NCBI GenBank assembly: GCA_021771715.1
Contig: JAETOO010000003.1
Coordinates: 124,001 to 188,000 of the forward strand
Direction of reading: 5' to 3'
DNA from: Oscillospiraceae bacterium
GTDB taxonomy: Bacteria; Bacillota; Clostridia; Lachnospirales; Lachnospiraceae
Length of the DNA: 64,000 nt
This document shows, in pieces, positions 5,471 to 22,975 of the stretch (position 1 is the stretch's first letter; each line of letters opens with the position of its first letter). Both the position numbers and the translations under genes were made by a program. Under the pieces are notes generated by a model, which did no database searches, was not told the DNA's origin, and saw only the letters and a list, made by a program, of their open reading frames with translations.

Positions 5471-7003
5471 ATGAAGAAAGCTTTGATTGCAATCGTCGTG
5501 CTCGGGCTGATCGGAGGCGGCGGGTACGGTGTATATCACTATTTTTTTGAGAAGACCGATACGCAGAAGCGTGTTTCCTCCACGAGCGAGGATGCTGTGT
5601 ACGTGGATCAGGTGTCTGTGATCACGGGCTACGGCAGCGGGAGCGGCTATCTGCAGCGCTATGGCGGTGAGGTGGAGCCGCAGGAGACGCTCGAGGTAAA
5701 GCTCGAGTCGGAGCGCACCGTGAAGGAGTGCTTCGTCGAGGAGGGCGATGACGTGAAGGAGGGGCAGCGCCTCTTCGTCTACGACACGCAGGAGGACGAG
5801 GATAAGCTGGCGCAGGCCGAGATTGATATTGAGAAGGCCAAAGGGGAGATCGAGCTCGCCGAGAAGCAGATCAAGTCCTACGAGAAGTCGAAGGCGAGCG
5901 CCAGCGCGGATGACCAGCTGACCTACACGACGTATATCATGGAGCAGCAGACCGTGATCAAGCAGAGCGAGTACGAGATCAAGACGAAGGAGCTCGAGGT
6001 CAAGAATCTGAAGGAGCGTATCGCCGACGCGACCGTCCTGTGTGAGATGGACGGCGTCGTCCAGAAGATCAGCGATCCGTCGGATAACCAGTCTATGGGC
6101 TACTACGGGTACGGTTCCAGCGATTCCTCGGCGTACATAACGATCCTGTCCGCGGGCGATTTCCGGATCAAGGGCAGCGTGAACGAGCACAATCTGGAGG
6201 ACCTGCAGAATCTGTACAATATGGGCGTGCGCATCGTCGTCACTTCGCGTGTCGACAGCACCCAGAAGTGGTACGGGACGATCTCCGAGATCAAGACGGA
6301 CCAGGCGGAGGATGACACGAACGGCGGCCGGGTGTATTATGACTACGGCGGAGCCGATTCGTCGAACTATTCGTTCTATGTCGAGCTCGAGAGCTCGGAG
6401 GGGCTCATCCTCGGACAGCATGTGTACATGGAGGAGGATGCCGGACAGGACGAGAAGAAGGACGGACTGTGGCTGGAGGAGTATTACCTCATGCAGGAGG
6501 ACGGCAAGGCATACGTCTGGCTGGCGAACAGCAAGGATGTGCTTGAGAAGCACGAGGTGACGCTCGGCGATTATGACGACGCGCTGATGGAGTACGAGAT
6601 CACGGAAGGGCTCGGCGCGGAGGACTACATCGCGGTTCCGCAGGAGGGCGTCGAGGAGGGCAACCCGGTCATCTATAACGATATGACGGCGAATGCGGAA
6701 GACCTGAGCTTTGACGACGGCATGGCTCCGGAGGGCATGGATCTTGAGGGCGGCATGTCCGGTGAGGATATGGGATTTGAGGAAGATCTGTCCGGCGAGG
6801 ATATGGGCCTTGACGGTATGTCTGACGGGGACATGGGCCTTGAGGATGGGATGTCCGGTGAGGATATGAGCTTCGAGGGGGATCTGTCCGGCGAGGATGT
6901 GGGCTCCGTGGACTGGCTGTCGGAGGATGATTACTTAGATCTTGACACTGAGGCCGGGATGGATTCGGATGTCTATGACGCGGATGCGGACGGGAATGAT
7001 TGA
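5471..7003 (+). CDS. Membrane-fusion (HlyD/MacA-like) adaptor of ABC exporter
   Basis: Adaptor subunit of a MacB-type ABC exporter. A single membrane anchor (residues 3-23) is followed by a lipoyl-like half domain (VEPQETLEVKLESERTVKE, FVEEGDDVKEGQRLFVYD), a coiled coil from about 110 to 185, the second lipoyl half (ATVLCEMDGVVQKIS) and beta-barrel segments (AGDFRIKGSVNE). From about residue 405 the tail is a run of acidic, Met- and Gly-rich units of the form SGEDMGFE, SGEDMGLD and DGDMGLED, probably disordered and possibly surface-exposed. Short Tyr/Gly stretches (YYGYGSSD) interrupt the barrel, as also in the second adaptor. The site AAGGGG precedes the ATG. It is the first gene of the four-gene operon. 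Substrate unknown. Confidence 0.85.
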   Translation: MKKALIAIVVLGLIGGGGYGVYHYFFEKTDTQKRVSSTSEDAVYVDQVSVITGYGSGSGYLQRYGGEVEPQETLEVKLESERTVKECFVEEGDDVKEGQRLFVYDTQEDEDKLAQAEIDIEKAKGEIELAEKQIKSYEKSKASASADDQLTYTTYIMEQQTVIKQSEYEIKTKELEVKNLKERIADATVLCEMDGVVQKISDPSDNQSMGYYGYGSSDSSAYITILSAGDFRIKGSVNEHNLEDLQNLYNMGVRIVVTSRVDSTQKWYGTISEIKTDQAEDDTNGGRVYYDYGGADSSNYSFYVELESSEGLILGQHVYMEEDAGQDEKKDGLWLEEYYLMQEDGKAYVWLANSKDVLEKHEVTLGDYDDALMEYEITEGLGAEDYIAVPQEGVEEGNPVIYNDMTANAEDLSFDDGMAPEGMDLEGGMSGEDMGFEEDLSGEDMGLDGMSDGDMGLEDGMSGEDMSFEGDLSGEDVGSVDWLSEDDYLDLDTEAGMDSDVYDADADGND

Positions 7004-7020
7004 TGCGGGGAGGTTATTCT

Positions 7021-7704
7021 GTGATCCTGAAATTGGAGCATATCTATAAAGATTATATTCAGGGAAAAATGACGGTCCCTGTGCTGAAGGATGTGAGCCT
7101 CCACGTGGAGGAGGGCGAGTACGTGGCCATCATGGGACCTTCGGGCTCGGGCAAATCGACGCTGATGAATATTGTCGGATGTCTGGACCGCCCGACCTCG
7201 GGCAGCTACGAGCTGGCCGGAGAGGATGTGCTGTCCCTGAGTGAGAACAAGCTCGCCGATGTGAGGCTGAACAGTATCGGCTTCGTCTTCCAGAATTTCC
7301 AGCTGCTGCCGCGGATGTCCGCGCTCGACAATGTAGCGCTGCCGCTGGTCTACGCTGGGGTGCGCAAGAAGGTGCGCCGGGAGCGCGCGCGGGAGGCGCT
7401 CGTGCGCGTGGGGCTGGAGGAGCGTATCTCCTTCAATCCGTCGCAGCTTTCAGGCGGACAGAAGCAGAGGGTCGCGATCGCGCGCGCGATGGTGAACAAG
7501 CCGAAGATTTTGCTGGCCGACGAGCCGACCGGAGCGCTGGATTCCAAGTCGAGCGCCCAGGTCATGGAGCTTTTTTCGAAACTGAACGAGGAGGGCGTGA
7601 CGGTTGTGATGATCACGCACGACCCGGGAATCGCAAATCATGCGAAGCGTGTCGTTGATATATTTGACGGTGAGATATCGGAACGTGGGGAGGCGGTTCA
7701 ATGA
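7021..7704 (+). CDS. MacB/LolD-type ABC transporter ATPase
   Basis: ATP-binding subunit of the export operon. Walker A GPSGSGKST, Q-loop FVFQNFQLLPRMSA, signature LSGGQKQR, Walker B ILLADEPTGALD and switch histidine in MITHD are all intact. The LSENKLADVR block between Walker A and the Q-loop is typical of the MacB/LolD/FtsE family. The GTG at 7021 is preferred: GGGGAGG lies 7 bases upstream, while the in-frame TTG at 7000 and ATG at 7003 overlap the preceding stop and lack a site. Its stop overlaps the next start (ATGA), so translation is coupled. It works with the permease at 11142 and the two adaptors either side of it. Confidence 0.95.
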   Translation: MILKLEHIYKDYIQGKMTVPVLKDVSLHVEEGEYVAIMGPSGSGKSTLMNIVGCLDRPTSGSYELAGEDVLSLSENKLADVRLNSIGFVFQNFQLLPRMSALDNVALPLVYAGVRKKVRRERAREALVRVGLEERISFNPSQLSGGQKQRVAIARAMVNKPKILLADEPTGALDSKSSAQVMELFSKLNEEGVTVVMITHDPGIANHAKRVVDIFDGEISERGEAVQ

Positions 7705-10700
7705 AAATCAGGACGGTAATCATCAGTGTCGTGGTGAGTGCATCGCTCGTGGCCGGGATCGGCTACGGCGCGTACTACGCGATGAAGGGGGAGGCAAAGC
7801 CGGTCGAGGTGGTCCCCGTGGCGAACGTCAACAGCTACTATGGCTATGGAGGGGATGAAGGGCAGATTTACGGAAGCATCACCTCCCAGGTGGCGCAGAC
7901 GGTCATGCTGAATGAGGAGTATGCGATCGAGAAGATCTACGTCGAGGAGGGCGATACGGTGGAGGAAGGCGCCCCGCTCTTCTCCTATGATATGACGCTG
8001 CCGGAGCTGGAGCTGGAGATGGCGAAGCTGAACCTGCAGTCGCAGGAGCTGACGATGGTCCGGCTGGAGAAGGATCTGGAGAAGCTGAAGAACACGAAGG
8101 CTTCCGCGTCCCTGGATCTGCACGCGGCGGTGCGCACGGCGTCCGCGGAGGAGCCGGCGGAGGAGATTGTCGAGGAGGCGCCGGCGGATGCCGGTGTGCC
8201 GGACGGCTCGGATCTCAGTGAAGCGGGGGAGACGGGTTCGGATGCGTCCCAGGCGGAGGCTTCGGATGCGGAAGAGAGCACAGAGGCAGATCCCGGCGCA
8301 GAGGGCGGCAGCCCGGAGAAGGGCAGCTCGGATGAGTTTGTGCAGTCCATTGAGTCCGTCGAGGGAGCGGACATAGGGGAGGATACGGACCGCATCGTGA
8401 CGATCCGCAACTCGGTCCAGAGCTATGAGCGGCTGATGGCCGCGCTGGATGTCCTGATTCTGACGTACGGCGACTCGCTTGAGGCTGCGGATATCCGGAA
8501 GGCGATGCGGGAGATTGTCGCGTATTACCGGAAGAACCTGGCAGACGAGCAGGTGACGGATGCGGTCGGAGACGACGGCGAGGCTGTGCAGGAGCGCAGC
8601 TATGTGATCAAAGACGAGGTGCGCCAGGCACTCGACGAGGAGGAGTTTGCGAATCTTGAGACGTATGCCGGGCGGATGGATCAGTGCCATGCGGCGTACG
8701 TGCAGCTGCTGATCGCGGAGCTCGACCCGGAGAACCCGGGCGACTTTGCAGCGTATGTGAAGGAGGCGCGGGAGGAATATGAGAGCTTGGTGACCGCGAT
8801 GCGTGCAGAGGTCGCGAACCTCGACCGCCTCGCAGAGATGGAGAAGCGGGCAGAGGCAGGAAGCGGCACGGCCGGAGCGGCGGAGCTTGGGACGGAACCA
8901 GGCACGGCCGCAGGAGCGGAGTTCGGAACGGAATCCGGCGTGGACACAGCGTCCGGGGATGAGACGGAATCCGGCACGGGCGAGACCTCCTCTGCGCAGG
9001 CTGAGAGCGGTCTGCCGGGGGATGGCAGCGGCGTGACGCAGGCCGGGGAGAGCGGTCTGCCGGGCGAAACGTCTGCAGGCGAGACGGAAGTGTTTTCTGA
9101 GACAGAGTCTCCGGACGAATTGATCGAGCTGGACGCACAGGGACAGGAGACCGGGGAGACGCAGACGGAGAGCGCGTCCGAGGAGTCGGAGCAGCAGACC
9201 TACACGGTCACGGTGAAAAACGGCACGCTCGGCGATACGGCGGACGCGACCGGGCAGTTCCGCGCGGGCGATACGGTCACCATAAGAGCTAAGGCGGAAG
9301 ACGAGACGCAGAGCTTTGTGAGTTGGCTTGTGACGCCGAATACGGTGGCGCTCGCGGACGCGGCGGCTGCCGAGACGACCTTTGTGATGCCGGAATCGTC
9401 GGTCGAGGTCGAGGCAGTCTATGACGAGAAGATTAAGAACAGTGTCGAGTCCTTCCTTGCGCTTGCGGAGGCGGCGCTCGGCGCGGACGGAGTGACAATG
9501 ACCGCGTATGATCCGGGGGCGCTTGAGACGGCGATCGCGTTTTACCAGGCGAACCTTGCGGATGAGGCGGCTGAGATTGTCGACGGCGGCACTGTGCAGA
9601 TGGAGGAGTACGAGCTGAAGCAGTCCTTTGCGGATTATCTGACCGCAAACGGGCGGGAGCACGAGGTGACGTATCTGCCGGAGCGCTACAAGGCGCTGTG
9701 CATGACGTTTGTGAAGACCTTGGTTGACAGCCTGAACCCGCAGCAGCTGATCCGGGAGAAGGACGGCGACACGCAGCAGCAGCGGTATCTGACGCTCGAC
9801 TTTGCGAGACGCTCCTACGATTGGCTCGGGGACAACTGGCGCGCGGAGCTCGATGCGAGCGTGACGCAGACCGAGAGCGGCGGGACGGAGTCGCCTGCCG
9901 GGGATGTGGTCAGCTACAACGGGCAGACGGATTCGGCGGAGACGGAGGCAGCGCCAATGCCGGGCGACGGACTGGCAGAAGGCTCCTACGATGAGGGAAC
10001 CCAGGCAGGCGACGGCTCCTCCGAGGAGGAGACGCAGACCGGGGCTGAGGGCGGCGATCAGAGTGCAGCGATGCAGCCGGTCGTGCCTGCGGTGCTGACC
10101 TACGGGGAGCGGCTGGCGGCCTACGAGGTGATCCTGGAGATCCAGGAGACAGAGAATTATATGGCACAGCCGACGGAGCTTCTGGTGGCGTATCTGACGC
10201 AGGTGCGCGAGAATTACCTCGCTCTGACAGACGGCCAGAAGTCCGTGGTCTGGAACAGCGAGATCCTGATTGAGCTTTTGAAGCAGTACGGCCTCTGGGA
10301 GGAGGAGCCGCAGACAGGGAATCCGTTCCCGAATTTTGACGGCGGCATGGATGGCTTCGGCGATGAGGGCTACACCGCAGAGGAACTGCGGGATATGATT
10401 GACGACAAGGAGCGGGATATCCGCGAGTGCGAGCTCAGTATCCGCGAGGCGAACCTGGCGGTCGACAAGCAGCAGCGTGTGGTGGACGGCAAGGTCGTAA
10501 AGAGCACGATGGAGGGGACGGTCGTCAGCATCGGCACGGAGGACGGCAATTCCGAGAACGACTATTTCGTGAAGGTGGTAAATGAGACCGGCCTGTTTGC
10601 GAAGGGCGTGATGAACGAGCTCACGCTCGAGCGCGTGAAGGTGGGGGACACGATCTCCGGCCAGACGGACGACGGTATGTTCTTCACGGCGGTGGTCAAG

Positions 10701-11126
10701 GAGGTCTCGGACTACCCGGATCCGGACGGCAGCAATTACAGCATGAGCGGCTCCGAAAATACAAATGCTTCCTACTATCCGTTCTATGCGCTGCTGGACG
10801 ACACCGAAGGAATCTCGGAGGGCGGCGCGACGATCCAGCTCTCCGGCGATGCGATGAGCGATGCGGACGCGATCTACCTGGAGAATTATTTCATCAGAAC
10901 CGGAAATGACGGCAGGAGCTATCTCTACATACAGGGCAAGGACGGCACGCTGGTGAAACAGTACGTGACGACCGGCAAGTCGCTCTGGGGGTATGCGACG
11001 GAGATCACCTCCGGGCTTACCAAGTCGGACCGGATCGCATTCCCGTACGGGGAGAAGGTATTCGAGGGCGCGCCGACGAAGGAAGTGGATCAGCTCGAGG
11101 AGGCGTACGGAGGCGGACTCGGGTGA
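7701..11126 (+). CDS. Giant membrane-fusion adaptor with about 750-residue insertion
   Basis: 1141-residue second adaptor of the export operon, more than twice the usual length. The N-terminal anchor (residues 7-26) and first lipoyl half (YAIEKIYVEEGDTVEEGAPL) match the adaptor at 5471. The matching coiled coil (from about 892), second lipoyl half (VVKSTMEGTVVSIG) and barrel follow only after an insertion of roughly 750 residues. The insertion holds long Glu/Ser/Thr/Gly/Ala-rich linkers and two related helical blocks, each with the NLADE motif (about residues 283 and 617). Between them (about 500-576) lies a beta domain like the divergent InlB/bacterial repeat (YTVTVKNGTLGDTAD, VTIRAKAEDETQSFVSWLV, TTFVMPESSVEVEAVY). 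The start overlaps the ATPase stop and has GGGGAGG 7 bases upstream. Ligand or partner unknown. Confidence 0.82.
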   Translation: MKIRTVIISVVVSASLVAGIGYGAYYAMKGEAKPVEVVPVANVNSYYGYGGDEGQIYGSITSQVAQTVMLNEEYAIEKIYVEEGDTVEEGAPLFSYDMTLPELELEMAKLNLQSQELTMVRLEKDLEKLKNTKASASLDLHAAVRTASAEEPAEEIVEEAPADAGVPDGSDLSEAGETGSDASQAEASDAEESTEADPGAEGGSPEKGSSDEFVQSIESVEGADIGEDTDRIVTIRNSVQSYERLMAALDVLILTYGDSLEAADIRKAMREIVAYYRKNLADEQVTDAVGDDGEAVQERSYVIKDEVRQALDEEEFANLETYAGRMDQCHAAYVQLLIAELDPENPGDFAAYVKEAREEYESLVTAMRAEVANLDRLAEMEKRAEAGSGTAGAAELGTEPGTAAGAEFGTESGVDTASGDETESGTGETSSAQAESGLPGDGSGVTQAGESGLPGETSAGETEVFSETESPDELIELDAQGQETGETQTESASEESEQQTYTVTVKNGTLGDTADATGQFRAGDTVTIRAKAEDETQSFVSWLVTPNTVALADAAAAETTFVMPESSVEVEAVYDEKIKNSVESFLALAEAALGADGVTMTAYDPGALETAIAFYQANLADEAAEIVDGGTVQMEEYELKQSFADYLTANGREHEVTYLPERYKALCMTFVKTLVDSLNPQQLIREKDGDTQQQRYLTLDFARRSYDWLGDNWRAELDASVTQTESGGTESPAGDVVSYNGQTDSAETEAAPMPGDGLAEGSYDEGTQAGDGSSEEETQTGAEGGDQSAAMQPVVPAVLTYGERLAAYEVILEIQETENYMAQPTELLVAYLTQVRENYLALTDGQKSVVWNSEILIELLKQYGLWEEEPQTGNPFPNFDGGMDGFGDEGYTAEELRDMIDDKERDIRECELSIREANLAVDKQQRVVDGKVVKSTMEGTVVSIGTEDGNSENDYFVKVVNETGLFAKGVMNELTLERVKVGDTISGQTDDGMFFTAVVKEVSDYPDPDGSNYSMSGSENTNASYYPFYALLDDTEGISEGGATIQLSGDAMSDADAIYLENYFIRTGNDGRSYLYIQGKDGTLVKQYVTTGKSLWGYATEITSGLTKSDRIAFPYGEKVFEGAPTKEVDQLEEAYGGGLG

Positions 11127-11141
11127 AGGAGGTGTTGAGAG

Positions 11142-12401
11142 TTGCTGGAAAATGTTAGGCTGTCCTTTCAGGGCATCTGGTCACATAAAATGCGGTCGTT
11201 TCTGACGATGCTTGGCATCATCATCGGTATCGCGGCGATCATCTCGATTGTCTCGACGATCAAGGGGACGAACGAGGAGATCAAGAACAGTCTGGTGGGC
11301 TCCGGGAACAACACGGTGAACATCATGCTGTACACGCAGGGCTATACGCACAGTATCTATGGATCGTCGGATATTCCGTTCGGCGTTCCGCAGTTTTCCG
11401 AGGATACGCGCAAGCAGATCATGGAGCTTGACTCGGTGAAAAATGTGACTGCTTATGTGCAGCGGATGAATACGGAAGGATCTGTGTTCTATCAGGGGAC
11501 GACGCTCTCGTCGGGCTGCGTGCGCGGGATCGACACGAGTTATTTTGACACGATGGGCTACACGGTCCGGACGGGGCGCGGGTTTCTCGACGAGGACTAT
11601 ACGGATTTCCGCAAGGTCGTGATCATTGACCAGAACGCGGCGGACAAGGTTTTTGGCAAGGAGTCTGCGATCGGAAAGACGCTGGAGATCAACAAGGTGC
11701 CGTTTACCGTGGTCGGTGTCGTGACGAAGAAGACGGAGTTTGAGCCGAATATCTCAAATATTTCGGATTACTATGAGTATCAGGAAGACAAGATGAGCTA
11801 TCTGTTTCTCCCGAAGTCCTGCTGGCCGATCACCTACTGCTACGACGAGCCGGAAAATATCGTTGTCCGCGCGAAGACTACGGATGACATGGAGCAGGCC
11901 GGGCAGAGCGTGCAGCGGATTCTGAATGCGACGCTCTCCTCAAAGCAGGAGGATTTCAAGTATAAGGCGGATAACCTGCTCGAGCAGGCGCGCAAGATGC
12001 AGGAGCTGAGCTCGGCGACGAACAATCAGCTGATCTGGATTGCGAGCATCTCCCTGCTGGTCGGAGGAATCGGCGTCATGAACATCATGCTCGTGTCGGT
12101 CACAGAGCGTACGAGCGAGATCGGCCTGAAAAAGGCGATCGGCGCGCGCAAGCGCACGATCCTCGGACAGTTTCTGACCGAGGCGGCCGTGCTGACGAGC
12201 ATCGGCGGACTGCTCGGCGTGGCAGGCGGCATCGGCATGGCGCAGGTGATCAACCGGGTGTCCGGGGTCGCGGTGTCGATCGACGTCGTGGCGTCCGTGG
12301 TGGCGGTGCTGTTTTCCATGATGATCGGGATCATCTTCGGGCTGCTGCCGTCCGTCAAGGCGGCGAACCTGGATCCGATCGAGGCGTTAAGAAGAGAATA
12401 A
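11142..12401 (+). CDS. MacB-type FtsX-domain permease
   Basis: Membrane subunit of the exporter. One N-terminal transmembrane helix follows the family motif SHKMRSFLTMLGIIIGI. A MacB-type extracytoplasmic domain of about 240 residues comes next, then three C-terminal helices of the FtsX fold beginning IASISLLVGGIGVMNIMLVS with the conserved TERTSEIGLKKAIGARK loop. The C-terminus PSVKAANLDPIEALRRE is the standard family ending. A TTG start is used, supported by GAAGGAGGTG about 8 bases upstream. Sixteen bases separate it from the adaptor gene. It closes the operon. MacAB-like systems export peptides, lipoproteins or drugs; nothing here fixes the substrate. Confidence 0.94.
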   Translation: MLENVRLSFQGIWSHKMRSFLTMLGIIIGIAAIISIVSTIKGTNEEIKNSLVGSGNNTVNIMLYTQGYTHSIYGSSDIPFGVPQFSEDTRKQIMELDSVKNVTAYVQRMNTEGSVFYQGTTLSSGCVRGIDTSYFDTMGYTVRTGRGFLDEDYTDFRKVVIIDQNAADKVFGKESAIGKTLEINKVPFTVVGVVTKKTEFEPNISNISDYYEYQEDKMSYLFLPKSCWPITYCYDEPENIVVRAKTTDDMEQAGQSVQRILNATLSSKQEDFKYKADNLLEQARKMQELSSATNNQLIWIASISLLVGGIGVMNIMLVSVTERTSEIGLKKAIGARKRTILGQFLTEAAVLTSIGGLLGVAGGIGMAQVINRVSGVAVSIDVVASVVAVLFSMMIGIIFGLLPSVKAANLDPIEALRRE

Positions 12402-13444: not shown

Positions 13445-14383
13445 ATGGCGATTTCAGCATCACAGGTAAAAGAGTTGAGAGAGATGACAGGCGCTGGCAT
13501 GATGGACTGCAAGAAGGCTCTGACAGCGACTGAGGGAGATATGGACAAGGCAGTAGAGTGGCTCAGAGAGAAGGGCCTTGCTACCGCTCAGAAGAAGTCC
13601 GGCAGAATTGCCGCTGAGGGCCTTGCGATGGTAAAGGTTTCCGAGGACGGCAAGAAGGCTGTGGCAGTCGAGGTCAATTCCGAGACAGACTTCGTCGCAA
13701 AGAACGAGAAGTTCCAGGGCTATGTTGCGCAGGTAGCAGAGCAGGCGATGGACACGACGGCGGCAGATATCGACGCGTTCCTCGCTGAGCCGTGGAAGTT
13801 CGACACGACGAAGACCGTCAACGAGGCGCTGGCTGGCCAGGTTGCAGTGATCGGCGAGAACATGAAGATCCGCCGCTTCGCACAGGTGAAGGAGGACGCG
13901 GGCTTCATCGCTTCCTACACACACATGGGCGGCAAGATCGGCGTGCTCGTAGATGTAGTGACCGACGTGGTAAATGACGAGATCCGCGAGATGGCAAAGA
14001 ACGTTGCGATGCAGGTAGCAGCTCTGAAGCCGCTGTACACCAACGACAGCGAGGTAAGCGCAGACTACATCGCACATGAGAAAGAGATCCTGATGGCTCA
14101 GATCATGAACGACCCGAAGGAGTCCCAGAAGCCGCAGAAGGTGATCGACGGCATGATCCAGGGCCGTATCAAGAAGGAGCTCAAGGAGATCTGCCTGCTC
14201 GACCAGATCTACGTAAAGGCAGAGGACGGCAAGCAGTCCGTAGGCCAGTACGTCGCTCAGGTGGCAAAGGCAAACGGCGCGACCATCGCGATCAAAGGCT
14301 TCGTCCGCTTCGAGACCGGCGAGGGCATCGAGAAGAAGCAGGAAGACTTCGCGGCAGAGGTTGCGAAGCAGATGGGAATGTAA
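13445..14383 (+). CDS. tsf: Elongation factor Ts
   Basis: Guanine nucleotide exchange factor for EF-Tu. The N-terminal UBA-like domain shows VKELREMTGAGMMDCKKAL and the EF-Tu-contacting core shows VEVNSETDFVAKNEKF. 312 residues, in the longer clostridial range. The ATG at 13445 follows GGAGG; the upstream in-frame ATG at 13409 overlaps rpsB and is rejected. The last codons and the flanking terminator resemble sequences found again at 20.2 kb and 35.7 kb, suggesting that this gene end may have been an insertion target. Confidence 0.98.
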   Translation: MAISASQVKELREMTGAGMMDCKKALTATEGDMDKAVEWLREKGLATAQKKSGRIAAEGLAMVKVSEDGKKAVAVEVNSETDFVAKNEKFQGYVAQVAEQAMDTTAADIDAFLAEPWKFDTTKTVNEALAGQVAVIGENMKIRRFAQVKEDAGFIASYTHMGGKIGVLVDVVTDVVNDEIREMAKNVAMQVAALKPLYTNDSEVSADYIAHEKEILMAQIMNDPKESQKPQKVIDGMIQGRIKKELKEICLLDQIYVKAEDGKQSVGQYVAQVAKANGATIAIKGFVRFETGEGIEKKQEDFAAEVAKQMGM

Positions 14384-14397
14384 TCCTGATTCTATTT

Positions 14398-14448
14398 AAA
14401 TGAATAGTGATTGTTTGAGAGAGCTTCGGAGAAATCCGGGGCTCTTTT
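14398..14448 (+). terminator. Terminator after tsf, part of a duplicated element
   Basis: Hairpin AGAGCTTCGGA-GAAA-TCCGGGGCTCT followed by TTTT at 14420-14448. The whole 51-base block from AAATGAATA onward recurs with a handful of differences at 35678-35729, the other end of the A+T-rich accessory region. Confidence 0.85.
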
Positions 14449-14480
14449 CTGATTTTGCGCAGTTTATGAATATAGAAAAA

Positions 14481-14546
14481 CAGTTTGATTATAAACTGAT
14501 TTTTATAAATAATGAACTTGACAGTAACATGGAAATGACGTAATAT
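14481..14546 (+). promoter_or_regulatory. Promoter and inverted repeat upstream of abiE genes
   Basis: TTGACA at 14518-14523 and TAATAT at 14541-14546 with a 17-base spacer. Just upstream is the inverted repeat CAGTTT-6-AAACTG (14481-14498). AbiEi antitoxins are known to repress their own promoter by binding inverted repeats, so this is the obvious candidate operator, by inference. Confidence 0.6.
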
Positions 14547-14611
14547 GGATTAAATCTACAAAATAATAGACTGATTTTAAACTATTTCAACAAAAAATAA
14601 ACGGTGATTAT

Positions 14612-15361
14612 ATGAATTTGTATTTTGAACTTTTGAAACAGCCGGTGTTTACGATAGAACATGTAAATCAATATTATAATAAGATTGAAAGCGCCCGTTC
14701 TGCGGTGAAACGTCTAATGGGAAAGGGGCTCGCAGTAAAAATACGAAATAATCTTTATACATGTATTAGTGGAGAAACGGATGCTCCGCTTGCCAATCGC
14801 TATCAGATTGCAAGTGCAATTACATCGACCTCTTATGTTTCCCATCATACGGCGATGGAATATTATGGCATCAGTGATCAGGTCTTTTATGAGGTTTACG
14901 TATCTTCAGAGGAAACGTTCCGTGATTTTGAATTTGATGGCTATGTTTATCATTGTGTCTGTTCCAAATGTAATGAAGGAATCGAAAGTGTGAACTTTAG
15001 CGGAGGAGTGCGGATAACGGACAAAGAACGAACCGTGATAGACAGTATAAAGGATATGGACAAAATAGCAGGATTGGAAGAAGTGATAGATAACATTCAA
15101 AGCATACCCAGACTGGATGAAAAAAGGTTGCTTGCATATTTAGAATGCTATCGTAATCAGTTTTTATATCAGAAAACAGGCTTTTTGTTGGAAACGCAGA
15201 AAGAGCGGCTTTCAATACCGGATGAGTTTTTTAAAGCATGTAAAGAGAGGGTGGGTTTAAGCAAGCGCTATTTGACAAAAGACTGCCAAGAGGGAAAATA
15301 TGACTGTAATTGGCGTTTAGTAGTTCCTTTCGGGATATATGATTTGAAAAATGGAGGATAA
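14612..15361 (+). CDS. AbiEi-family antitoxin / transcriptional autoregulator
   Basis: 249-residue protein with an N-terminal winged helix (residues 1-60, including SARSAVKRLMGKGLAVKIRN and LYTC) and the AbiEi antitoxin pattern: IASAITSTSYVSHHTAMEYYG, then ITDKERTVIDSI. It is predicted to repress the promoter and neutralise the adjacent AbiEii nucleotidyltransferase; AbiE is a type IV toxin-antitoxin system that also gives abortive infection against phage. It lies 3 bases before its partner, so the operon is tight. The ribosome site is weak. It is A+T-rich compared with tsf next door, consistent with horizontal gain. Confidence 0.88.
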   Translation: MNLYFELLKQPVFTIEHVNQYYNKIESARSAVKRLMGKGLAVKIRNNLYTCISGETDAPLANRYQIASAITSTSYVSHHTAMEYYGISDQVFYEVYVSSEETFRDFEFDGYVYHCVCSKCNEGIESVNFSGGVRITDKERTVIDSIKDMDKIAGLEEVIDNIQSIPRLDEKRLLAYLECYRNQFLYQKTGFLLETQKERLSIPDEFFKACKERVGLSKRYLTKDCQEGKYDCNWRLVVPFGIYDLKNGG

Positions 15362-15364
15362 GAT

Positions 15365-16333
15365 ATGGTGATTTACGACAAGGGACAGCTTGGACAGGCA
15401 GCAAAGAAAAGCAGATTTGTACGCGATACTTTTGAAAAAGTGCTGCGGTTAAAAGAGATATTGGTATATTTGAATACGGATGAATATTTGCATGAACATT
15501 TGGCTTTAAAGGGTGGAACTGCGATTAATATGACGATTTTTGATTTGCCACGCCTGTCTGTAGATTTGGATTTTGATTTCACTCCTAATTTGTCTTTAGA
15601 AGATATGGAGACAGCGAGAGAAAAGATTACAGAATTTCTGAAAAACTATATGCTGGAGGAAGGATATATTCTGTCTGATTCTTCAAGATATAGTCATAGT
15701 CTGGATTCTATGCTGTTTCAGTATCAAAATGCGGGTGGTAATAGAGATAGTATTAAACTGGAAGTGAATTATTCTATGCGGTCACATATTTTTTCACCGA
15801 CAGAGCGAAAGATAGTAACGGATATTTTCGAAGATAGAGTATTGGTGCGTACTTTGGAACCAATGGAGATATTTGCAGCAAAAGCCAATGCGCTTATGAG
15901 CCGTGCTGCAGCCAGAGATTTATATGATTTTAATAATATGATTTATTTTGGTTTGTTTGATGAATCAGAATACGAATTACTTCGCAAATGTATTATTTTT
16001 TATGCATCCGTATCAGCAGAACAGATTAATAAGACATTTGATGTTTCAGCAATTGACAGACTGGATTTTTCAAAAATAAGACGCGATTTATTCCCGGTAC
16101 TTCGGAAAAAGGATAATTTTAATTTGGAAGAACGCAAAAGTAAGGCGAAAGAATTTATTAGAAAGCTTATGATTTTGAATCTGGAGGAAACAAAGTATTT
16201 GAAACTGTTTGAGACAGGAGAATATAGACCAGAATTGCTGTTTTCTGACAAGCAAATTTTGGAGAATGTTGCCAAGCACCCAATGGCTCTCTGGAAAATG
16301 CGGTCAGGGCATGAGTTGAAGATGAAATATTAA
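15365..16333 (+). CDS. AbiEii/AbiGii-family nucleotidyltransferase toxin
   Basis: 322-residue toxin partner of the preceding AbiEi. The nucleotidyltransferase signature is intact: LALKGGTAINM (glycine-rich loop) and LPRLSVDLDFDF supplying the metal-binding aspartates. Downstream are the conserved MEIFAAKANALMSRAAARDLYDF positions where the family has the KxxAlxxRxxxRDlyDl block. The toxin is thought to modify tRNA or nucleotides and cause stasis. GGAGG lies about 8 bases before the ATG. The reading frame is complete, so the system is probably functional. Confidence 0.9.
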   Translation: MVIYDKGQLGQAAKKSRFVRDTFEKVLRLKEILVYLNTDEYLHEHLALKGGTAINMTIFDLPRLSVDLDFDFTPNLSLEDMETAREKITEFLKNYMLEEGYILSDSSRYSHSLDSMLFQYQNAGGNRDSIKLEVNYSMRSHIFSPTERKIVTDIFEDRVLVRTLEPMEIFAAKANALMSRAAARDLYDFNNMIYFGLFDESEYELLRKCIIFYASVSAEQINKTFDVSAIDRLDFSKIRRDLFPVLRKKDNFNLEERKSKAKEFIRKLMILNLEETKYLKLFETGEYRPELLFSDKQILENVAKHPMALWKMRSGHELKMKY

Positions 16334-16362
16334 GGGAGTAATATGGTTAATAGGAGAATAAT

Positions 16363-18291
16363 ATGTTAACAGATGAAAAAGAGATGTTGAACGTTTTAAA
16401 TATTGGAAAAGAGATTTTATCTGAACATCCAGAATTTTTGTCGATGGAATTAAATGATGTAATGAATGAATTGGATGATGGAACAGATGAAATGATTCAT
16501 AATCGTTGGGGTGTAGCTGCATGGTTAGTTGTAAATCGGATTAGTAGTTTTGAAACAAAGGAATTGATTAAATATTTATCTAAAATAGATAGTGGGATTT
16601 TAACATATGAATATGCGGGATATCTTCTTCAAACAGAGTATCATGTGAATATGGAGGAGTTAATACTAGAAGCAGATCAGTTTGGTGAATTTGATAAAAT
16701 TGTATTATATGTGTGTGAAAATATCAGTTTTTGGACAGAACTACATCAGGAATTTATTTCTGCAATAATAAGTATGTTAGGGAGACATAAAAACTACAGA
16801 GGATATCAAACATTTTTGACAAAATATGCACATCATATAATGAACATGGGAGCACAGCGGTTAACTGAAAATATTTTGGGAGATTTAACTGAACAATCAC
16901 AGTATGATTGTATGCGAGCACTGCGAAGAGAGTGGTATGAAAAAGATAAGGTTGAGGCTAGTGATGTAATTGGACGTATGTTAGAACGGCAGAGTATTTG
17001 GAGTAAGAAAGCCGCTATTGATTTTTGGGAAATGAGTTTATATTACGATGTATATGTATTCTGCCATTATTTCAATGAAATAGAATTATTAATTTCAAAA
17101 AACGATGAATTTTGGAAAATGGTGATACCAGTGTTAGTGGAATATGTAGTAATCATTAGTTCTCAAAGCAATAAGGTTGATGAAAAGCTACATAGTTGCA
17201 TAATGGATTATTTAAAAAGAATTCCGAAAGGTTCTGTAGAGGAAAAAAGATGCTTTTTGGGAAGTGTGGTATGGAATGAAAAGATTCCGGAAGATTTAGT
17301 ACAGATTTTTGAATTAATAATAGTAAGTTCGTTTGAAAAAGATCATCAGATATTAGATATTCTTGATGATTACTTATATAGGCAGCTACAGGAGAAAAAA
17401 TATGAGTTAGTATGTCAGATGTTGTTAAAAGTTTTTGTAACAAACAAATTTTCTTCAAAATATCAAGATTTTTTTGAAACCTTTAATTCGATATGTTATG
17501 AGCTTTCAGGAAAATATGTGGTAGAAGTGACAAAAGATGCGGTGAAATATATGCTTTTGGGAGGTATAGAGCAGTACTTTTTTGGTTTGGGATTGTTGGA
17601 GAAAGTGGGAAATTTAAAAAAATTATACGATGAAAGTGATACCATAATTAAGTTGAGCGATGCACAGATGGTTCGTTTAATGAAAGGAGTTCTTTACTAT
17701 GCTAGTGATAATAAAAAAATATGTCATACAGCGTTTCAATTACTAATGTTTTCTTCTGCAAATTGTGATGCATATATGAAATTATGCTTGGAAGAAGTTT
17801 TTGAAAATTATCCAGAGACGATGTATGAAATTGGGGAAAAGTATAAAATGGGAAAAGATGAACAGCAAGCAAACTTGTCAAATAAGATTATAAAGAGATA
17901 TGAACAGATGTCAGAGGAAAGAAATCAAAGTTATAAAATTAAAGATTTGAATCCTTCAAGGGAACACCAATATATTTATCACAAAGCACAAATGGAACAA
18001 AACCATCGGATTAATAAAATGGCAAATGAGGCATCTGTGTTTGTAAAACTATTCCCAAGTAGAATAATGAAATATGGAAAACGAAATGCGCATATTGTGA
18101 TTGGTAAAAAGAATGAAAAGTTTTATCAAGTAAATCCATATATGGAACATAAATATCAAGTAGAACTTCCTACAATGTATATAAATGACCCTGTAGATTT
18201 TGAGTTGAGGCGAAGAGCGTTTTTAAGGGAGGTGGAGTTGGGTGCGATTGGTAATAAAGGATTATCTACTTCAATTGAAGGAGAAAGATGA
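16363..18291 (+). CDS. Unrecognised 642-residue helical protein, partner of the next gene
   Basis: I do not recognise this protein. It is almost entirely helical by composition, rich in Glu, Lys, Ile and Tyr, with no signal peptide or membrane segments, and could be a HEAT/TPR-like scaffold. The last 120 residues differ, with charged and more structured text (KIKDLNPSREHQYIYHKAQ, FVKLFPSRIMKYGKRNAHIV). It begins 29 bases after the AbiEii stop and ends 50 bases inside the next gene, so the two proteins are translationally linked. Base composition matches the A+T-rich abiE genes. Position beside abiE suggests a role in phage defence, which is inference only. Confidence 0.55.
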   Translation: MLTDEKEMLNVLNIGKEILSEHPEFLSMELNDVMNELDDGTDEMIHNRWGVAAWLVVNRISSFETKELIKYLSKIDSGILTYEYAGYLLQTEYHVNMEELILEADQFGEFDKIVLYVCENISFWTELHQEFISAIISMLGRHKNYRGYQTFLTKYAHHIMNMGAQRLTENILGDLTEQSQYDCMRALRREWYEKDKVEASDVIGRMLERQSIWSKKAAIDFWEMSLYYDVYVFCHYFNEIELLISKNDEFWKMVIPVLVEYVVIISSQSNKVDEKLHSCIMDYLKRIPKGSVEEKRCFLGSVVWNEKIPEDLVQIFELIIVSSFEKDHQILDILDDYLYRQLQEKKYELVCQMLLKVFVTNKFSSKYQDFFETFNSICYELSGKYVVEVTKDAVKYMLLGGIEQYFFGLGLLEKVGNLKKLYDESDTIIKLSDAQMVRLMKGVLYYASDNKKICHTAFQLLMFSSANCDAYMKLCLEEVFENYPETMYEIGEKYKMGKDEQQANLSNKIIKRYEQMSEERNQSYKIKDLNPSREHQYIYHKAQMEQNHRINKMANEASVFVKLFPSRIMKYGKRNAHIVIGKKNEKFYQVNPYMEHKYQVELPTMYINDPVDFELRRRAFLREVELGAIGNKGLSTSIEGER

Positions 18292-19849
18292 ATTGGATTT
18301 GTTGCTCTGCGATTTATTGCTTCAAATGGGATATATCACTGATAACAAACCTGAAACAGGAAATCGCCAGTATGGAGTAGATATTCGGGCACATAATAAA
18401 TGGGAAATATTACTTTGTGTTGTTAAACAAGGTAATCTTAAAAGAAATAATTGGGATTCAGGGAAAAATGCTGTCAGGCAAAGCTTGAATGATATTAAGG
18501 ATGTTTATATTGAATTAATTAAAGGAAAAGAGCGAGAAAAGAAACTACGTATTGTTGTGGCTACTAATGGAGTGATCGATGAAGCTGTCAGACCAAACTG
18601 GGAAGGGTATAAAAGTCAGAATGTTGTGTGGAATGGGATGGAGGTGAATATTGAGTTTTGGGGTATTGATGAGTTGGTGGACTATATACAAAAATACTTG
18701 TTTGATGAACACATATTCGGAGCAGAAATGCAAAGATTGCTTAGAAGAGCCCTTTATTATACGGGAGAGCCCGATTATCGCAAAGGATATTTTGAATGCA
18801 TTATTGATTCATATATTGCACAATTTAATAATAAGGATGTACCAAAAGTGCAAAAGAAAAAACTTGCAGGCCTTTATCTTGCTAGTCAGATGGTGGCACA
18901 ATACGCCGCAGAAACAGGTACATATAAAATTAGCGTGAATGTAACAGAGTATTTGATTATTCGTTATTGGAAATATATGCTTGAATATAATTATTTGGGA
19001 AAAAGTCAGTATGTAGAATGGCTGCATAAGTTTTTATTTGCATATGAGAAATGGAATCAAAAGTATTTTGAGGAAGTGAGATATTGTTGCGAAGGTAAAA
19101 ATCGGATTCCGCTTTATAATCCAGTAGAGCAACGAGTAATGTTATACGAAATGCTTGGTTATTTGGTATCGTATGCATATTATTTGTCATTCCAAAAAGA
19201 ATACAATATAGAGGCACAGAAAAAGTGTCGGCAGATACAAGATAGTATAATAAGTTTGATAAATAATTATTCACAATATCCCTATGCACCCTATGACCAG
19301 CATGTTGGTATTATCAGTATGTTATATCGATTTCTTGGGAAAATGGGAAGAACTGAAGACATAGAATGTCTGCTTCAATATCAATGTATACGTTTAGCAT
19401 ACTATTATATTATATATAAAAAGTATCCAACTGCCCAGGATACATTTGAAGACGCAATAAATATTCATATGGGATTCCAAACGGAAGATTATCTGACTTC
19501 TGGCTTTTGGGGGACTATGATGGAGTGGATAGTATTAATGGAACAAAAGGATTTGTATCAACAATTATATCTCTTTCTAAAAGAGGATTTGGCAAAAGTG
19601 ACAAAATGCGTTTGGTTTCTCAGGGCAGAGGAAGAAGCCAGTTTTTATGATGCATATGCTATGAATAGCGTTGGGGAAGGCATGTCAATTAGTGAGGAAA
19701 AAACCTTTGAAGAGTTAAAAGAAAAAGTATTATTTTGTTTAAAACAGTATGAGGGAGAAAAATTTAGTTTCGAGGAGTATTCTTTTGAACCTTTAGAGTT
19801 TATTGTTTGTAGGTATTATGGCTATTTGGTACGTGTGAAGAAGGAATAA
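18242..19849 (+). CDS. Large protein with restriction-endonuclease-like N-terminus
   Basis: 535 residues. The first 160 or so resemble PD-(D/E)xK nuclease-like domains: LLLCDLLLQMGY, then RQYGVDIRAHNKW, LLCVVKQGN and LRIVVATNG, ending in an FWGIDELVDYI segment of a kind common in such proteins. The usual Q/ExK is not exact (CVVK), so catalysis is uncertain. The remaining 375 residues are helical and rich in Tyr, Gln and Leu, possibly TPR-like. The GTG start at 18242 is supported by AGGGAGG about 9 bases upstream and implies a 50-base overlap with the preceding gene. It is an effector candidate for a two-protein module; function unproven. Confidence 0.55.
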   Translation: MRLVIKDYLLQLKEKDELDLLLCDLLLQMGYITDNKPETGNRQYGVDIRAHNKWEILLCVVKQGNLKRNNWDSGKNAVRQSLNDIKDVYIELIKGKEREKKLRIVVATNGVIDEAVRPNWEGYKSQNVVWNGMEVNIEFWGIDELVDYIQKYLFDEHIFGAEMQRLLRRALYYTGEPDYRKGYFECIIDSYIAQFNNKDVPKVQKKKLAGLYLASQMVAQYAAETGTYKISVNVTEYLIIRYWKYMLEYNYLGKSQYVEWLHKFLFAYEKWNQKYFEEVRYCCEGKNRIPLYNPVEQRVMLYEMLGYLVSYAYYLSFQKEYNIEAQKKCRQIQDSIISLINNYSQYPYAPYDQHVGIISMLYRFLGKMGRTEDIECLLQYQCIRLAYYYIIYKKYPTAQDTFEDAINIHMGFQTEDYLTSGFWGTMMEWIVLMEQKDLYQQLYLFLKEDLAKVTKCVWFLRAEEEASFYDAYAMNSVGEGMSISEEKTFEELKEKVLFCLKQYEGEKFSFEEYSFEPLEFIVCRYYGYLVRVKKE

Positions 19850-20340
19850 TAATTATGGCAAAAGACGGAATGAAACTTTGCCTGTTTCTTCTATAAAAAG
19901 CAGAAACAACAGTTTTACCAATTTCTATTTCCCTTTTACCAACTTTTTAATTTCACCGATTTTGATGCGAAAATCAGGGGAGAAAAATCCTTACCAATCA
20001 AAAGTCTGGTAAACTCAAAGGCGAATATCTATCAGGTCTGCATAAATCCAGCATTTCCTGCAAAAATTCGCAAAGCAGATGGCTGGAAACTAGGTGAATC
20101 AAGTCCGAAGGACGCAGATGAACCGTATGCTGGAAGCTATGTAGCGTTGCTTAGCGAACCGAGCTTGAAGGGTGAAGGTGAGGTTAGCAACAGCCGCATG
20201 GGAATGTAAGCCGAATTTTGTCGATATTCTTATGAATAGTGAAACCCTTGTAAATGGTGTGAGTATGCTGTTTACAAAGGTTTTTCCATTGCAAAATTTG
20301 TAATGGATATTACCCGAAATCTATGGTAGAATAACTATAG
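19850..20340. other. Non-coding stretch with relic sequence
   Basis: No intact gene. A frame from about 20060 to 20209 reads without stops and ends in MGM and a stop, like EF-Ts, but has no start. ATGGGAATGTAA (20198-20209) and ATGAATAGTGA (20232-20242) repeat exactly the two short blocks at the tsf 3' end (14372-14383 and 14400-14410). Confidence 0.5.
20245..20285 (+). terminator. Putative rho-independent terminator
   Basis: CCTTGTAAA and TTTACAAAGG form a stem around a 16-base loop followed by TTTTT. It closes the transcript of the two-gene module or its relic tail. Confidence 0.6.
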
Positions 20341-20361
20341 TTGAAAAGGAGTTGGTTTTAC

Positions 20362-20532
20362 ATGTTAGTAAGTGCAGACAAAAAGTGGGAGTATGCATTG
20401 GGCATGATTAAGGTAGATGGACTGGAACCGTCACCAGAGTTTAAAAAGCTAATAGAAAAGGAAAAACGTGGCGAGATGACTACAGTGGATATGCGTAAAG
20501 TGTTGGATAAAAAGTACAAAATAAAAGAATAG
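20362..20532 (+). CDS. VbhA-like antitoxin of a Fic toxin
   Basis: 56-residue protein of the antitoxin VbhA type: an N-terminal helix, then GLEPSPEFKKLIEKEKRGEM and a final helix (TTVDMRKVLDKKY). In these systems the antitoxin helix inhibits the AMP-transferring Fic toxin encoded directly downstream. Here the toxin gene is broken (next entry), leaving an intact antitoxin. AAGGAG lies 11 bases before the ATG at 20362; an upstream in-frame TTG at 20341 is less likely. Whether it is still useful, for instance against incoming Fic toxins, is speculation. Confidence 0.75.
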   Translation: MLVSADKKWEYALGMIKVDGLEPSPEFKKLIEKEKRGEMTTVDMRKVLDKKYKIKE

Positions 20533-20542
20533 AGGGATTGTT

Positions 20543-20752
20543 ATGAATAATCCATATGTATATCCACACACTGATATATTGAGGAATTTTGCGAACATAT
20601 GAGACGAGAACGAATTGTCTTGTATGGAAGCTGAATATACGAGCATACGGCTTGCAGAACTTGTTACAAAAGAATCTGTAAGCCGTTTTGACTTTGCAGC
20701 ACTTTGTGACATGCACTGGGGGAATAATGTTGAAGGGAAGAGAAGGCAATGA
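20543..20752 (+). pseudogene. Fic-family toxin gene, disrupted
   Basis: Begins MNNPYVYPHTDILRNFANI, the usual opening of Fic proteins of this group, then hits an in-frame TGA at 20600. The frame continues with DENELSCMEAEYTSIRLAEL and FDFAALCDMH, again Fic-like. It then runs out of similarity where the family continues into the domain that carries the HPFxxGNGR active site, which is absent. Sequence to about 20880 has no recognisable continuation. This is therefore an N-terminal relic with a nonsense mutation and a missing catalytic part. Confidence 0.75.
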
Positions 20753-20923
20753 AAAATAAAAAGACTGCTTTCCCAGCTGAGAATAGAGCAGATTGGAAAA
20801 AAGATGAGTGAAGAAAAACTCCAACAGGTTATTGGAGAATTTCCATTCCCTGCTTTTTTCCTATGTTCCTTGGGGACACCATATTGACATTATCACAAAG
20901 TGAATTCTATAGAGGAGGATGTT

Positions 20924-21193
20924 ATGAGTTTTGGAGCGACCTATGACAGTGAGACAGGACTTCCGAAAGATAACAGTTACCTGGAATGCGGTTTGCCTGG
21001 ATTCCTACAGGAATCCATTCAGGCGATGAAATCTGCATGGAGAAAATTGGACCAGGGGGAGGAATATTTGCGCTGGGACTGTGATTTTTGTAATCTGCAA
21101 ACAGACATTAACAATGCCGAAGTAAATCAAATGATTAGTTCCGAACAGGCATGGTATTTGCGGGAAAAGTATTTGAGATTGGAGAAGGAGTGA
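20924..21193 (+). CDS. Small partner protein of HipA-like kinase, unrecognised
   Basis: 89-residue acidic protein (MSFGATYDSETGLPKDN...) with two Trp-rich helices and a Cys-containing WDCDFCNLQTDIN segment. I recognise no domain. GAGGAGG precedes the ATG, and the gene ends 4 bases before the HipA-like kinase, so it is either the cognate antitoxin-type partner or an adaptor. No helix-turn-helix is obvious, unlike classic HipB. Confidence 0.6.
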   Translation: MSFGATYDSETGLPKDNSYLECGLPGFLQESIQAMKSAWRKLDQGEEYLRWDCDFCNLQTDINNAEVNQMISSEQAWYLREKYLRLEKE

Positions 21194-21197
21194 GCAG

Positions 21198-22091
21198 ATG
21201 ACAGTCTTTGATTTTACAGATTTACCAAAGCGTAACAAGGCGTATGCTGGTGCTAACGGTAACAAGATTTCCATCATTTATAATGAGGAACAGTATATGC
21301 TTAAGTTTCCAGCGGTTCCGAAAAAGAATAAGGATATGAGTTATAGTAACGGCTGCTTTTCGGAGTATCTGGGCTGTCAGATTTATGAAAGCATCGGAAT
21401 TCCTGTGCAAAAGACGTTACTCGGCACCTTTCGGGTAAGGGGCAAAGAGAAAATCGTCGTGGCTTGCCGCGATTTCACAAAGCCTGGTGTTGTTTTGCAG
21501 GACTTCGCTTCGTTGAAAAACCAGATGATTGATTCCGAGCGGAATGGTTATGGGACAGAACTATCGGACATTCTCTATACATTTTCAGAACAAACAGCAG
21601 TTGATGAGGCAGCACTCTCACAGCGTTTTTGGGATATGTTCATTGTTGATACATTGATTGGCAACTGGGACCGGCATAACGGCAACTGGGGATTTCTTTA
21701 TAATACCATGACCGACGAAATGGAACTGGCCCCGGTTTATGATTGCGGAAGTAGCCTTTACCCGCAGGCAGACGACAAGATCATGACTTCTGTACTGACA
21801 AATGAGAAGGAACGGGATTTCCGAATTTTTGAGATTCCAACATCTGCGGTTATGATAAACGGCAAGAAAATTAAGTATTTTGACTTTATTTCTTCCCTGC
21901 AAAATGAGGATTGTAATCTTGCCTTAAAGCGGATTGTTCCACAAATTGACATGGCTAAAATTGAGAAAATTATTGATGGTACGCCGTTCTTGAGCGATTT
22001 GCAGCGTCAGTTTTATATGACAATGCTTGCAGCGCGTAAGGAAAGAATACTGGATTTTTCTCTGAACGCATTAGAAAAACAAGGAATTTGA
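21198..22091 (+). CDS. HipA-like serine/threonine kinase
   Basis: 297-residue kinase of the HipA C-terminal-domain type. The ATP-loop lysine lies in YMLKFPAVPKK, the catalytic loop is FIVDTLIGNWDRHNGNWGFL, and the metal-binding segment is APVYDCGSSLYP. It lacks the HipA N-terminal subdomain, as do CtkA-like stand-alone kinases. Toxin kinases of this group phosphorylate translation factors and induce dormancy. It is coupled to the small gene 4 bases upstream. The active-site residues look intact, so it is probably functional. Confidence 0.82.
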   Translation: MTVFDFTDLPKRNKAYAGANGNKISIIYNEEQYMLKFPAVPKKNKDMSYSNGCFSEYLGCQIYESIGIPVQKTLLGTFRVRGKEKIVVACRDFTKPGVVLQDFASLKNQMIDSERNGYGTELSDILYTFSEQTAVDEAALSQRFWDMFIVDTLIGNWDRHNGNWGFLYNTMTDEMELAPVYDCGSSLYPQADDKIMTSVLTNEKERDFRIFEIPTSAVMINGKKIKYFDFISSLQNEDCNLALKRIVPQIDMAKIEKIIDGTPFLSDLQRQFYMTMLAARKERILDFSLNALEKQGI

Positions 22092-22128
22092 TTAGATGTA
22101 GCTGCAATAGATAGAACAGGAAGTTGCT

Positions 22129-22239
22129 ATGGACGATAAGGAAATCCAGAAATTCGGGGTGGTAAAGACAGAGATCCCCGAAGAATATCAAAATGGAGAT
22201 TTCCAGCAGCGTGTCATCATAGACATGAGCCATTGTTGA
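22129..22239 (+). CDS. Short hypothetical ORF, possibly relic
   Basis: 36 codons starting at ATG 22129 (MDDKEIQKFGVVKTEIPEEY...) with a weak GGAAG site. The text reads like real protein, and it sits just after the HipA-like kinase and before mobile-element debris. It may be the start of a truncated element gene. Confidence 0.3.
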   Translation: MDDKEIQKFGVVKTEIPEEYQNGDFQQRVIIDMSHC

Positions 22240-22247
22240 AAGAAAGG

Positions 22248-22664
22248 ATTTGGGGGAAGGCGTTTCCCCAAAATTCAAGGAGCTATCCCCCAAATTTGAA
22301 AATGCGAAGGAGAGAAAAAAGCTGAGGTGCGATTTTCCTACCCCCAAAAAATATTTGGGGGAAAAACGAGAGGGAAGATAGATAGTTGGAATCGCCGCCG
22401 ACATTCCAGAGGCCGGGAAATGCCGGAAATACGGGCAAAAACGCGGGTGGGATGCGGCAGGACGATAAGGGAGCGATCCAAAAGTTCACAAAACAGATGG
22501 GAAGGTAAACTCTATTCCGCATAGCTCAATTTGAGAACTTCAGAACCCTTGAAAATCCCGTAAAATGGGCATTTTCAAGGGTTTTCTGCGTCCTTTGGAG
22601 CGATACACAGCACATCATATCTTACCGCATTTTGAACACAAATTTGGGGGATTTTTTGGGGAAA
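22248..22664. repeat. Cluster of TTTGGGGG/CCCCCAAA repeats, iteron-like
   Basis: Seven copies in both orientations: 22248-22258, 22263-22273 (inverted), 22285-22298 (inverted), 22341-22348 (inverted), 22354-22361, 22639-22652 and 22654-22664. The first pair and the 22341/22354 pair form hairpins. The blocks at 22285 and 22639 are 14-base exact inverted repeats of each other (ATCCCCCAAATTTG). The cluster lies immediately before a ParB-domain fragment. Confidence 0.65.
22545..22585 (+). terminator. Strong hairpin terminator
   Basis: CCCTTGAAAAT and ATTTTCAAGGG form an 11-base-pair stem, followed by TTTT. It lies inside the repeat cluster and before the ParB fragment. Confidence 0.7.
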
Positions 22665-22975
22665 TGGATACGGCAGAGAGTATCCGGCAGCACGGTGTTC
22701 TGGTTCCGGCGATTGCAAGGCCGGACCCGGATGGAGGGTATGAGCTGATTTCCGGGCATCGCCGCCACCATGCGAGTGAGATTGCCGGGAGAGAGGCCAT
22801 GCCGGTGATTGTCCGGGAGCTGGATGATGATGCCGCCACGATCATTATGGTAGACAGTAACCTGCAGAGAGAGGAGCTGCTTCCCAGTGAACGGGCATTT
22901 GTGTATAAGATGAAACTGGAAGCAATGAAGCATCAGGGAATACGGACGAAGTTGAGAGGATACAGATTGAATTAA
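22664..22975 (+). pseudogene. ParB-like partition protein fragment
   Basis: The central ParB/Sulfiredoxin-fold domain is clear: ESIRQHGVLVPAIARPDPDG, YELISGHRRHHASEIAG and MVDSNLQREELLPSERAF, as in ParB proteins of integrative elements and plasmids. The N-terminal part of the domain is replaced by unrelated text, and the protein stops after KHQGIRTKLRGYRLN, before the helix-turn-helix and dimer domains. It is thus a fragment without DNA-specificity domains. The in-frame ATG at 22664 is a formal start only. Confidence 0.7.

Follow-up and report, generated by a model that had tools for sequence, protein, structure and literature searches.

Gene content of the locus

The window, i.e., the whole 64,000-nucleotide stretch of DNA that was analysed, carries two overlapping genes, oloA and oloB, behind a pair of abiE-like genes.

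14612-15361, forward strand: abiEi-like gene, a neighbour not counted in Olokun (PADLOC AbiEi, E 9.3e-110)
15365-16333, forward strand: abiEii-like gene, a neighbour 29 nt ahead of oloA (PADLOC AbiEii, E 1.1e-116)
16363-18291, forward strand: oloA, ATG start, 642 aa, predicted HEAT-like alpha-solenoid
18227-18235, forward strand: Shine-Dalgarno-like sequence GGGAGGTGG, inside oloA and ahead of the oloB GTG, read from the sequence
18242-19849, forward strand: oloB, GTG start, 535 aa, PADLOC OloB

The overlap between oloA and oloB comprises 50 bases (18242-18291). With regard to the GTG start of oloB, 12 relatives in alignment A1 begin aligning at about the same residue. The G+C content is 0.311 for oloA and 0.340 for oloB, close to the abiE genes (0.381 and 0.357) and well below the window's 0.524. 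An earlier note on this DNA had given the same coordinates, the same overlap and the low G+C content common to the abiE pair, all of which hold. In line with its statement that neither protein has a recognisable housekeeping domain, searches of Pfam and NCBIfam yielded no match above the cut-off for the window's OloA or OloB.

Identification as Olokun

We take OloA and OloB to be the two genes that make up the Olokun anti-phage system. The window's OloB matches the PADLOC OloB profile with an E-value of 2.5e-86 and 289 bits, its residues 1-528 covering positions 1-543 of the profile's 556. OloA matches the PADLOC OloA profile with an E-value of 2.2e-26, in a match limited to residues 269-622. 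Judging by homology, the window pair is almost certainly Olokun. The earlier note had proposed an undescribed module, naming no known family for either protein; given that PADLOC names both as OloA and OloB, an undescribed system is ruled out, and the homologues belong to a defence family that was already known.

PMC10121019 lists Olokun and credits its description to Millman et al. 2022 (Cell Host Microbe). A review table enters its mechanism as unknown (PMC12926258), and a passage of PMC12592470 states that a thorough characterisation is still missing; in the portions of the literature cited here, the system is known by name and its mechanism is unexplained.

The window pair is a divergent member of this known system. 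It shares with Olokun the matches to both family profiles, the order oloA-oloB, the overlapping genes and an OloB that is matched over its whole length. However, the front of its OloA, approximately 180 residues, is unalignable to canonical OloA: when a profile of the branch's OloA sequences (A9, which includes L002) was compared with canonical OloA (A10), 425 columns aligned with an E-value of 1.1e-18, starting from residue 180, and the first 180 or so residues yielded no alignment. The OloA subsets differ among alignments A2, A6, A9 and A10. The gene overlap differs as well: the window and L002 have 50 nt, five loci (L018-L020, L026 and L028) have 17 nt, and each of the nine other loci measured has 4 nt (L010, L013 and L014 were left out of these measurements).

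Pairing, neighbours and distribution

OloA lies upstream of a full-length OloB, on the same strand, in all 18 distinct fetched loci (the window, L010-L015, L017-L020, L022, L023, L025-L028 and L030), recognised by PADLOC in 17 of them and by blastp in L014 (E 2.9e-5). Outside these 18 are the fragments L003, L007/L021 and L016, and the interrupted oloB of L002. L029 and L031 are apparent duplicates of L026 and L025, with the same matches, and do not enter the pairing counts; L004-L006, L008, L009 and L032-L035 repeat loci that the counts include under another handle. Given that every fetched full-length OloB has an OloA upstream, the pairing is more than chance. The coupled two-protein defence module proposed in the earlier note stands, as OloA and OloB of Olokun.

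The survey of gene neighbourhoods which that note had suggested finds defence-type neighbours in some of the loci, in addition to the recurrent pairing. Among them, L019 has a type IIG restriction enzyme, L011 a DNA methyltransferase together with a helicase, L015 a DncV-like synthase and L010 a NACHT protein. By eye, no defence neighbour was recognised in L018 and L020. In L010, two transposase genes lie between oloA and oloB.

A short OloA of 300 aa is found in L013, where it matches profile positions 360-589, and one of the same length in L014. These led us to consider OloA as a split protein in some genomes, but the piece in L016 reads as a remnant: a 142-aa OloA piece adjoins a CBASS-type 2TM effector, and the 359-aa OloB ends against an IS3 gene. 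In that locus, on a Burkholderia plasmid (L016, 2874-6080), the genes of a nucleotidyltransferase and of the 2TM effector run into the 142-aa OloA tail, as if a CBASS-like unit had taken the place of the front of oloA, with OloB shortened at the IS3 gene.

OloB, whose profile matches 13 of 13 A1 sequences, is rare: it is present in 5 of 397 genomes of the same family (G107 holds a fragment only), in 3 of 398 from the phylum and in none of 14 controls, the own genome being counted in both the family and the phylum. The OloA profile matches 1 of 98 relatives, the own genome, yet also 2 of the 14 control genomes, and for this reason OloA alone is weak, unspecific evidence. With tblastn, OloB was found in 33 plasmid records, 19 of them from Klebsiella (eight of the 33 were fetched), and in seven IMG/VR contigs; phage records yielded none at E 1e-5. 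Scans of viral contigs with the window's OloB, A4, L013 and L010 as queries returned no relative, and the L027 query returned only itself.

The N-terminal domain of OloB

18242-18721, forward strand: oloB residues 1-160, predicted Mrr-like nuclease domain (hhalign with Mrr_cat, conservation, model)
18722-19846, forward strand: oloB residues 161-535, helical and repeat-like (model and Foldseek)

Nine residues are invariant in the 20 OloB N-domains of alignment A7: E14, E17, D19, G45, D47, K62, R68, S81 and G110. The three motifs quoted in the earlier note are present and fall on this set, GVDIRA containing D47, LLCVVKQG containing K62 and VVATNG containing G110. At position 60, the site of the ExK acid, the residues are S (9), V (6), I (3) and T (2), i.e., neither an acid nor Q in any of the 20 sequences, in keeping with that note's description of the ExK as non-canonical. 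In PD-(D/E)xK enzymes the equivalent position holds D or E, and in Mrr it holds Q. Thus, the canonical D...(D/E/Q)xK motif is not present in OloB, despite D47 and K62 being found in 20 of 20. Position 84, inside the predicted helix 78-92, is E in 18 sequences and D in two, those of the window and L002.

When A7 was compared with 16 members of Mrr_cat (A8) using hhalign, the score was 33.1, at a probability of only 67. The alignment pairs D19 with the acid of helix A, D47 with the aspartate of GxD and K62 with the lysine of QxK. None of 200 column shuffles of this comparison scored above 23.7, the reversed alignment scored 10.2, and an unrelated profile (OloA) gave a probability of 0.6. Pfam's Mrr_cat itself matches one of the 20 N-domains (E 0.065). 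Profile searches of the PDB yielded chance-like matches and no nuclease. DUF4365 was also considered as a relative; it had no match anywhere, controls included, and is hence uninformative.

The AlphaFold2 model of OloB, built from an eight-row alignment, has a mean pLDDT of 74.7, with block means of 71-93 over residues 1-160. Its helix 18-28, strands 48-51 and 55-62, helix 78-92 and strand 101-108 form a topology that fits a PD-(D/E)xK/Mrr-like core, yet no nuclease is found among the best 50 of the 567 Foldseek matches to the full model, which are helical-repeat and other non-nuclease chains, none with an E-value below 0.001. The restriction-endonuclease-like N-terminus and PD-(D/E)xK fold put forward in the earlier note gain support, in that the Mrr_cat score exceeds all 200 shuffles and the predicted topology agrees; against them, the structural matches listed include no nuclease.

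On these profile comparisons, the predicted N-domain of OloB is Mrr-like. Its profile aligns with that of Mrr_cat (PF04471) along helix A and along the two strands that bear GvD and the lysine. It differs in that the acid or amide of QxK/ExK is absent in 20 of 20, in an extra near-invariant acid at 84, and in a long helical C-terminal part.

A second, possible likeness is to the CCGG-family restriction enzymes, whose motif is given in a passage of PMC4652773 as PD-x21-53-K-x12-13-E plus a further acid. The plan described there for NgoMIV, Cfr10I, Bse634I and BsaWI, in which an acid on a helix accompanies D and K and another acid stands on the helix that follows the strand of the lysine, would be shared by the predicted OloB N-domain. 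The spacing, however, differs: the window has D-x14-K-x21-D, and the interval from K62 to position 84 is 21 residues, against 12-13 in the CCGG enzymes. Given these values, the likeness is one of plan and not of spacing, and by analogy the putative OloB active site would resemble a relocated CCGG-type plan.

It is unlikely, in our assessment, that the system is Olokun with a catalytically dead OloB domain, which would bind nucleic acid only, leaving protection to OloA or to a block of a phage process. Such a reading would account for the ExK position having neither an acid nor Q in 20 of 20 sequences, and for the weak similarity to active Mrr families. However, across 20 sequences whose overall difference reaches approximately 80%, E14, E17, D19, D47 and K62 never vary and only E or D is found at position 84; we disfavour a dead domain because such constancy would hardly be expected unless the residues served catalysis or metal binding.

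OloA and the proposed mechanism

The model of OloA is almost wholly helical, with a mean pLDDT of 72.3 and values below 50 for residues 553-618 and 620-642. Foldseek returned three matches below an E-value of 0.001, the best being the PP2A scaffold 1b3u (E 1.9e-4). OloA accordingly models as a HEAT-like solenoid, in agreement with the helical, scaffold-like protein of 642 residues described in the earlier note. The fold class of the model is shared with the PP2A scaffold PR65 and other HEAT proteins, but at 11% identity this is a generic solenoid likeness and not kinship.

17890-18237, forward strand: oloA residues 510-625, a C-terminal segment that is the family's best-conserved part of the protein (the part aligned by blastp in distant OloA)

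This best-conserved segment is the low-confidence, unfolded part of the model of OloA alone, and because of this combination we infer a role as a docking tail.

In the mechanism that we propose, OloA, as a HEAT-type solenoid, would sense infection or act as a scaffold, holding OloB through the conserved C-terminal segment. OloB would be the effector, a metal-dependent DNA nuclease with the acids of the first helix (E14, E17 and D19), D47 and K62 in the usual places and the ExK acid shifted to the next helix (E84, here D84), on the pattern of the CCGG-family enzymes. A change brought about in OloA by the phage would set OloB free or bring it into alignment, and OloB would then cut the DNA of the phage or of the cell. 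We consider it fairly probable that OloA is the sensor or scaffold and OloB a nuclease effector with a moved acid, catalysis and triggering being the inferred parts. A more detailed version is put forward tentatively, as one that may well prove wrong: a PP2A-scaffold-like OloA would gate an Mrr-derived OloB nuclease with a migrated acid, the variable front half of OloA being the phage sensor and its conserved tail the docking site, and the window's branch would sense a different trigger. The invariant non-canonical residues of OloB and the conserved tail of OloA are direct handles on how Olokun works.

A divergent branch

Identity between the window's OloB and those of L018-L020 is 45-48%, but only 19-25% to the nine A1 members outside this branch. 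In the OloB tree, the window and L018-L020 form a clade with 100/100 support, and the branch that bears it measures 1.97 changes per column; the tree is rooted at its midpoint, and the program warns of long branches meeting and of letter composition differing among the rows. By these sequence comparisons, the window belongs to a well-separated Olokun branch, which adds to the breadth of the family and provides sequences from which structures could be predicted better. The branch is taken to be of Lachnospiraceae, the family of the window's two named close relatives.

That this branch is a decayed or repurposed Olokun, with phage defence lost, seems to us quite improbable. The length of the branch would suit it, as would the interrupted or fragmentary oloB of L002, L021 and L003 and the lack of obvious defence neighbours, by eye, in L018 and L020; on the other hand, the window's genes are intact, the invariant residues are kept, AbiE is on the same block, and L019 adjoins a type IIG restriction enzyme.

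The AbiE neighbours

The earlier note had placed the module beside AbiE. The abiE pair does adjoin oloA in the window, but the linkage looks incidental, since blastp relatives of the window's AbiE proteins are found in 1 of 24 loci, the window itself (E <= 0.05, at which a divergent AbiE could be missed; the 24 take in the two duplicates L029 and L031), and in none of the other 23. AbiE as an Olokun partner is thus unsupported, and as far as the sequences tell its place beside Olokun seems incidental. It is very improbable that abiEi, abiEii, oloA and oloB act together as a single system of four genes, with AbiE as guard or trigger of Olokun: the 29-nt gap between abiEii and oloA, the common strand, low G+C content and block, and another HTH and nucleotidyltransferase (DUF6036) pair in the same place before oloA in L002 speak for it, but the other 23 loci have no blastp AbiE relative, and the OloAB of L018-L020 lacks a pair of this kind directly ahead of it.

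Copies of the tsf 3' end on either side

14363-14375, forward strand: left copy of a 13-nt repeat, GCGAAGCAGATGG, within the end of tsf, read from the sequence
20062-20209, forward strand: displaced tsf 3' end and post-tsf sequence, with the right repeat copy GCAAAGCAGATGG at 20070-20082

The gene names tsf (a translation-factor gene) and rpsB are those that we presume from the sequence. A repeat search pairs the tsf end with 20198-20217. The stretch 20060-20222 is single-copy in the own genome. Four genomes (G821, G794, G822 and G805) have, across the 3' end of their tsf, sequence with 84-91% identity to 20062-20209. A longer query was matched in some part by 12 of the 47 genomes of the genus, the own genome among them; several of the matches fall in other places or shortly past tsf, and in the own genome the terminator part of the query is partially matched a second time. 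The approximately 5.7 kb between the tsf 3' ends hold abiEi, abiEii, oloA and oloB, and a terminator-like stem at 14417-14448 lies in the block framed by the tsf copies. Given these copies on either side, the abiE-Olokun block looks acquired, apparently by insertion at the tsf 3' end. No integrase was found in the block among ORFs of 100 aa or more, and Rfam had no match in 14300-21300.

Olokun or its remains also follow tsf in two other genomes (L002 and L021), beyond the tsf terminator and not at the same base; in L018-L020, Olokun lies elsewhere than after tsf. In L002, from a named Lachnospiraceae, positions 2763-8876 after tsf hold an HTH gene, a DUF6036 nucleotidyltransferase gene, oloA, and an oloB into which a DDE_3 transposase gene is set, splitting it; at 10883-12188 there is another HTH and nucleotidyltransferase pair, closely similar to the first. 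In L021, positions 8900-9708 after tsf hold an oloB fragment and an apparent oloA start, after which come an HTH gene and a type I restriction-like protein of 919 aa; this locus reads like a decayed Olokun.

We also considered whether defence systems generally gather at the end of tsf in this genus. This is unsupported: 20 same-genus post-tsf stretches, six of them under 3.5 kb, contain no Olokun by eye, and the OloA profile matched no same-genus genome besides the own.

By eye, some same-genus genomes seem to have approximately 120-130 bp inside the last tsf codons, which are absent in others and give the ending AGN instead of GM (L077 408-554 versus L080 and L081; window 20083-20202). This sequence could be a small mobile repeat. 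In another same-genus locus (L037, 1131-2048), a phage-integrase-family gene, which could be a XerC/D-type recombinase, lies approximately 0.8 kb past tsf. Downstream in the window lie a HipA_C-like gene and a short gene with a ParB_N domain (21198-22975), and the stretch of lowered G+C content that holds them extends to about 36 kb.
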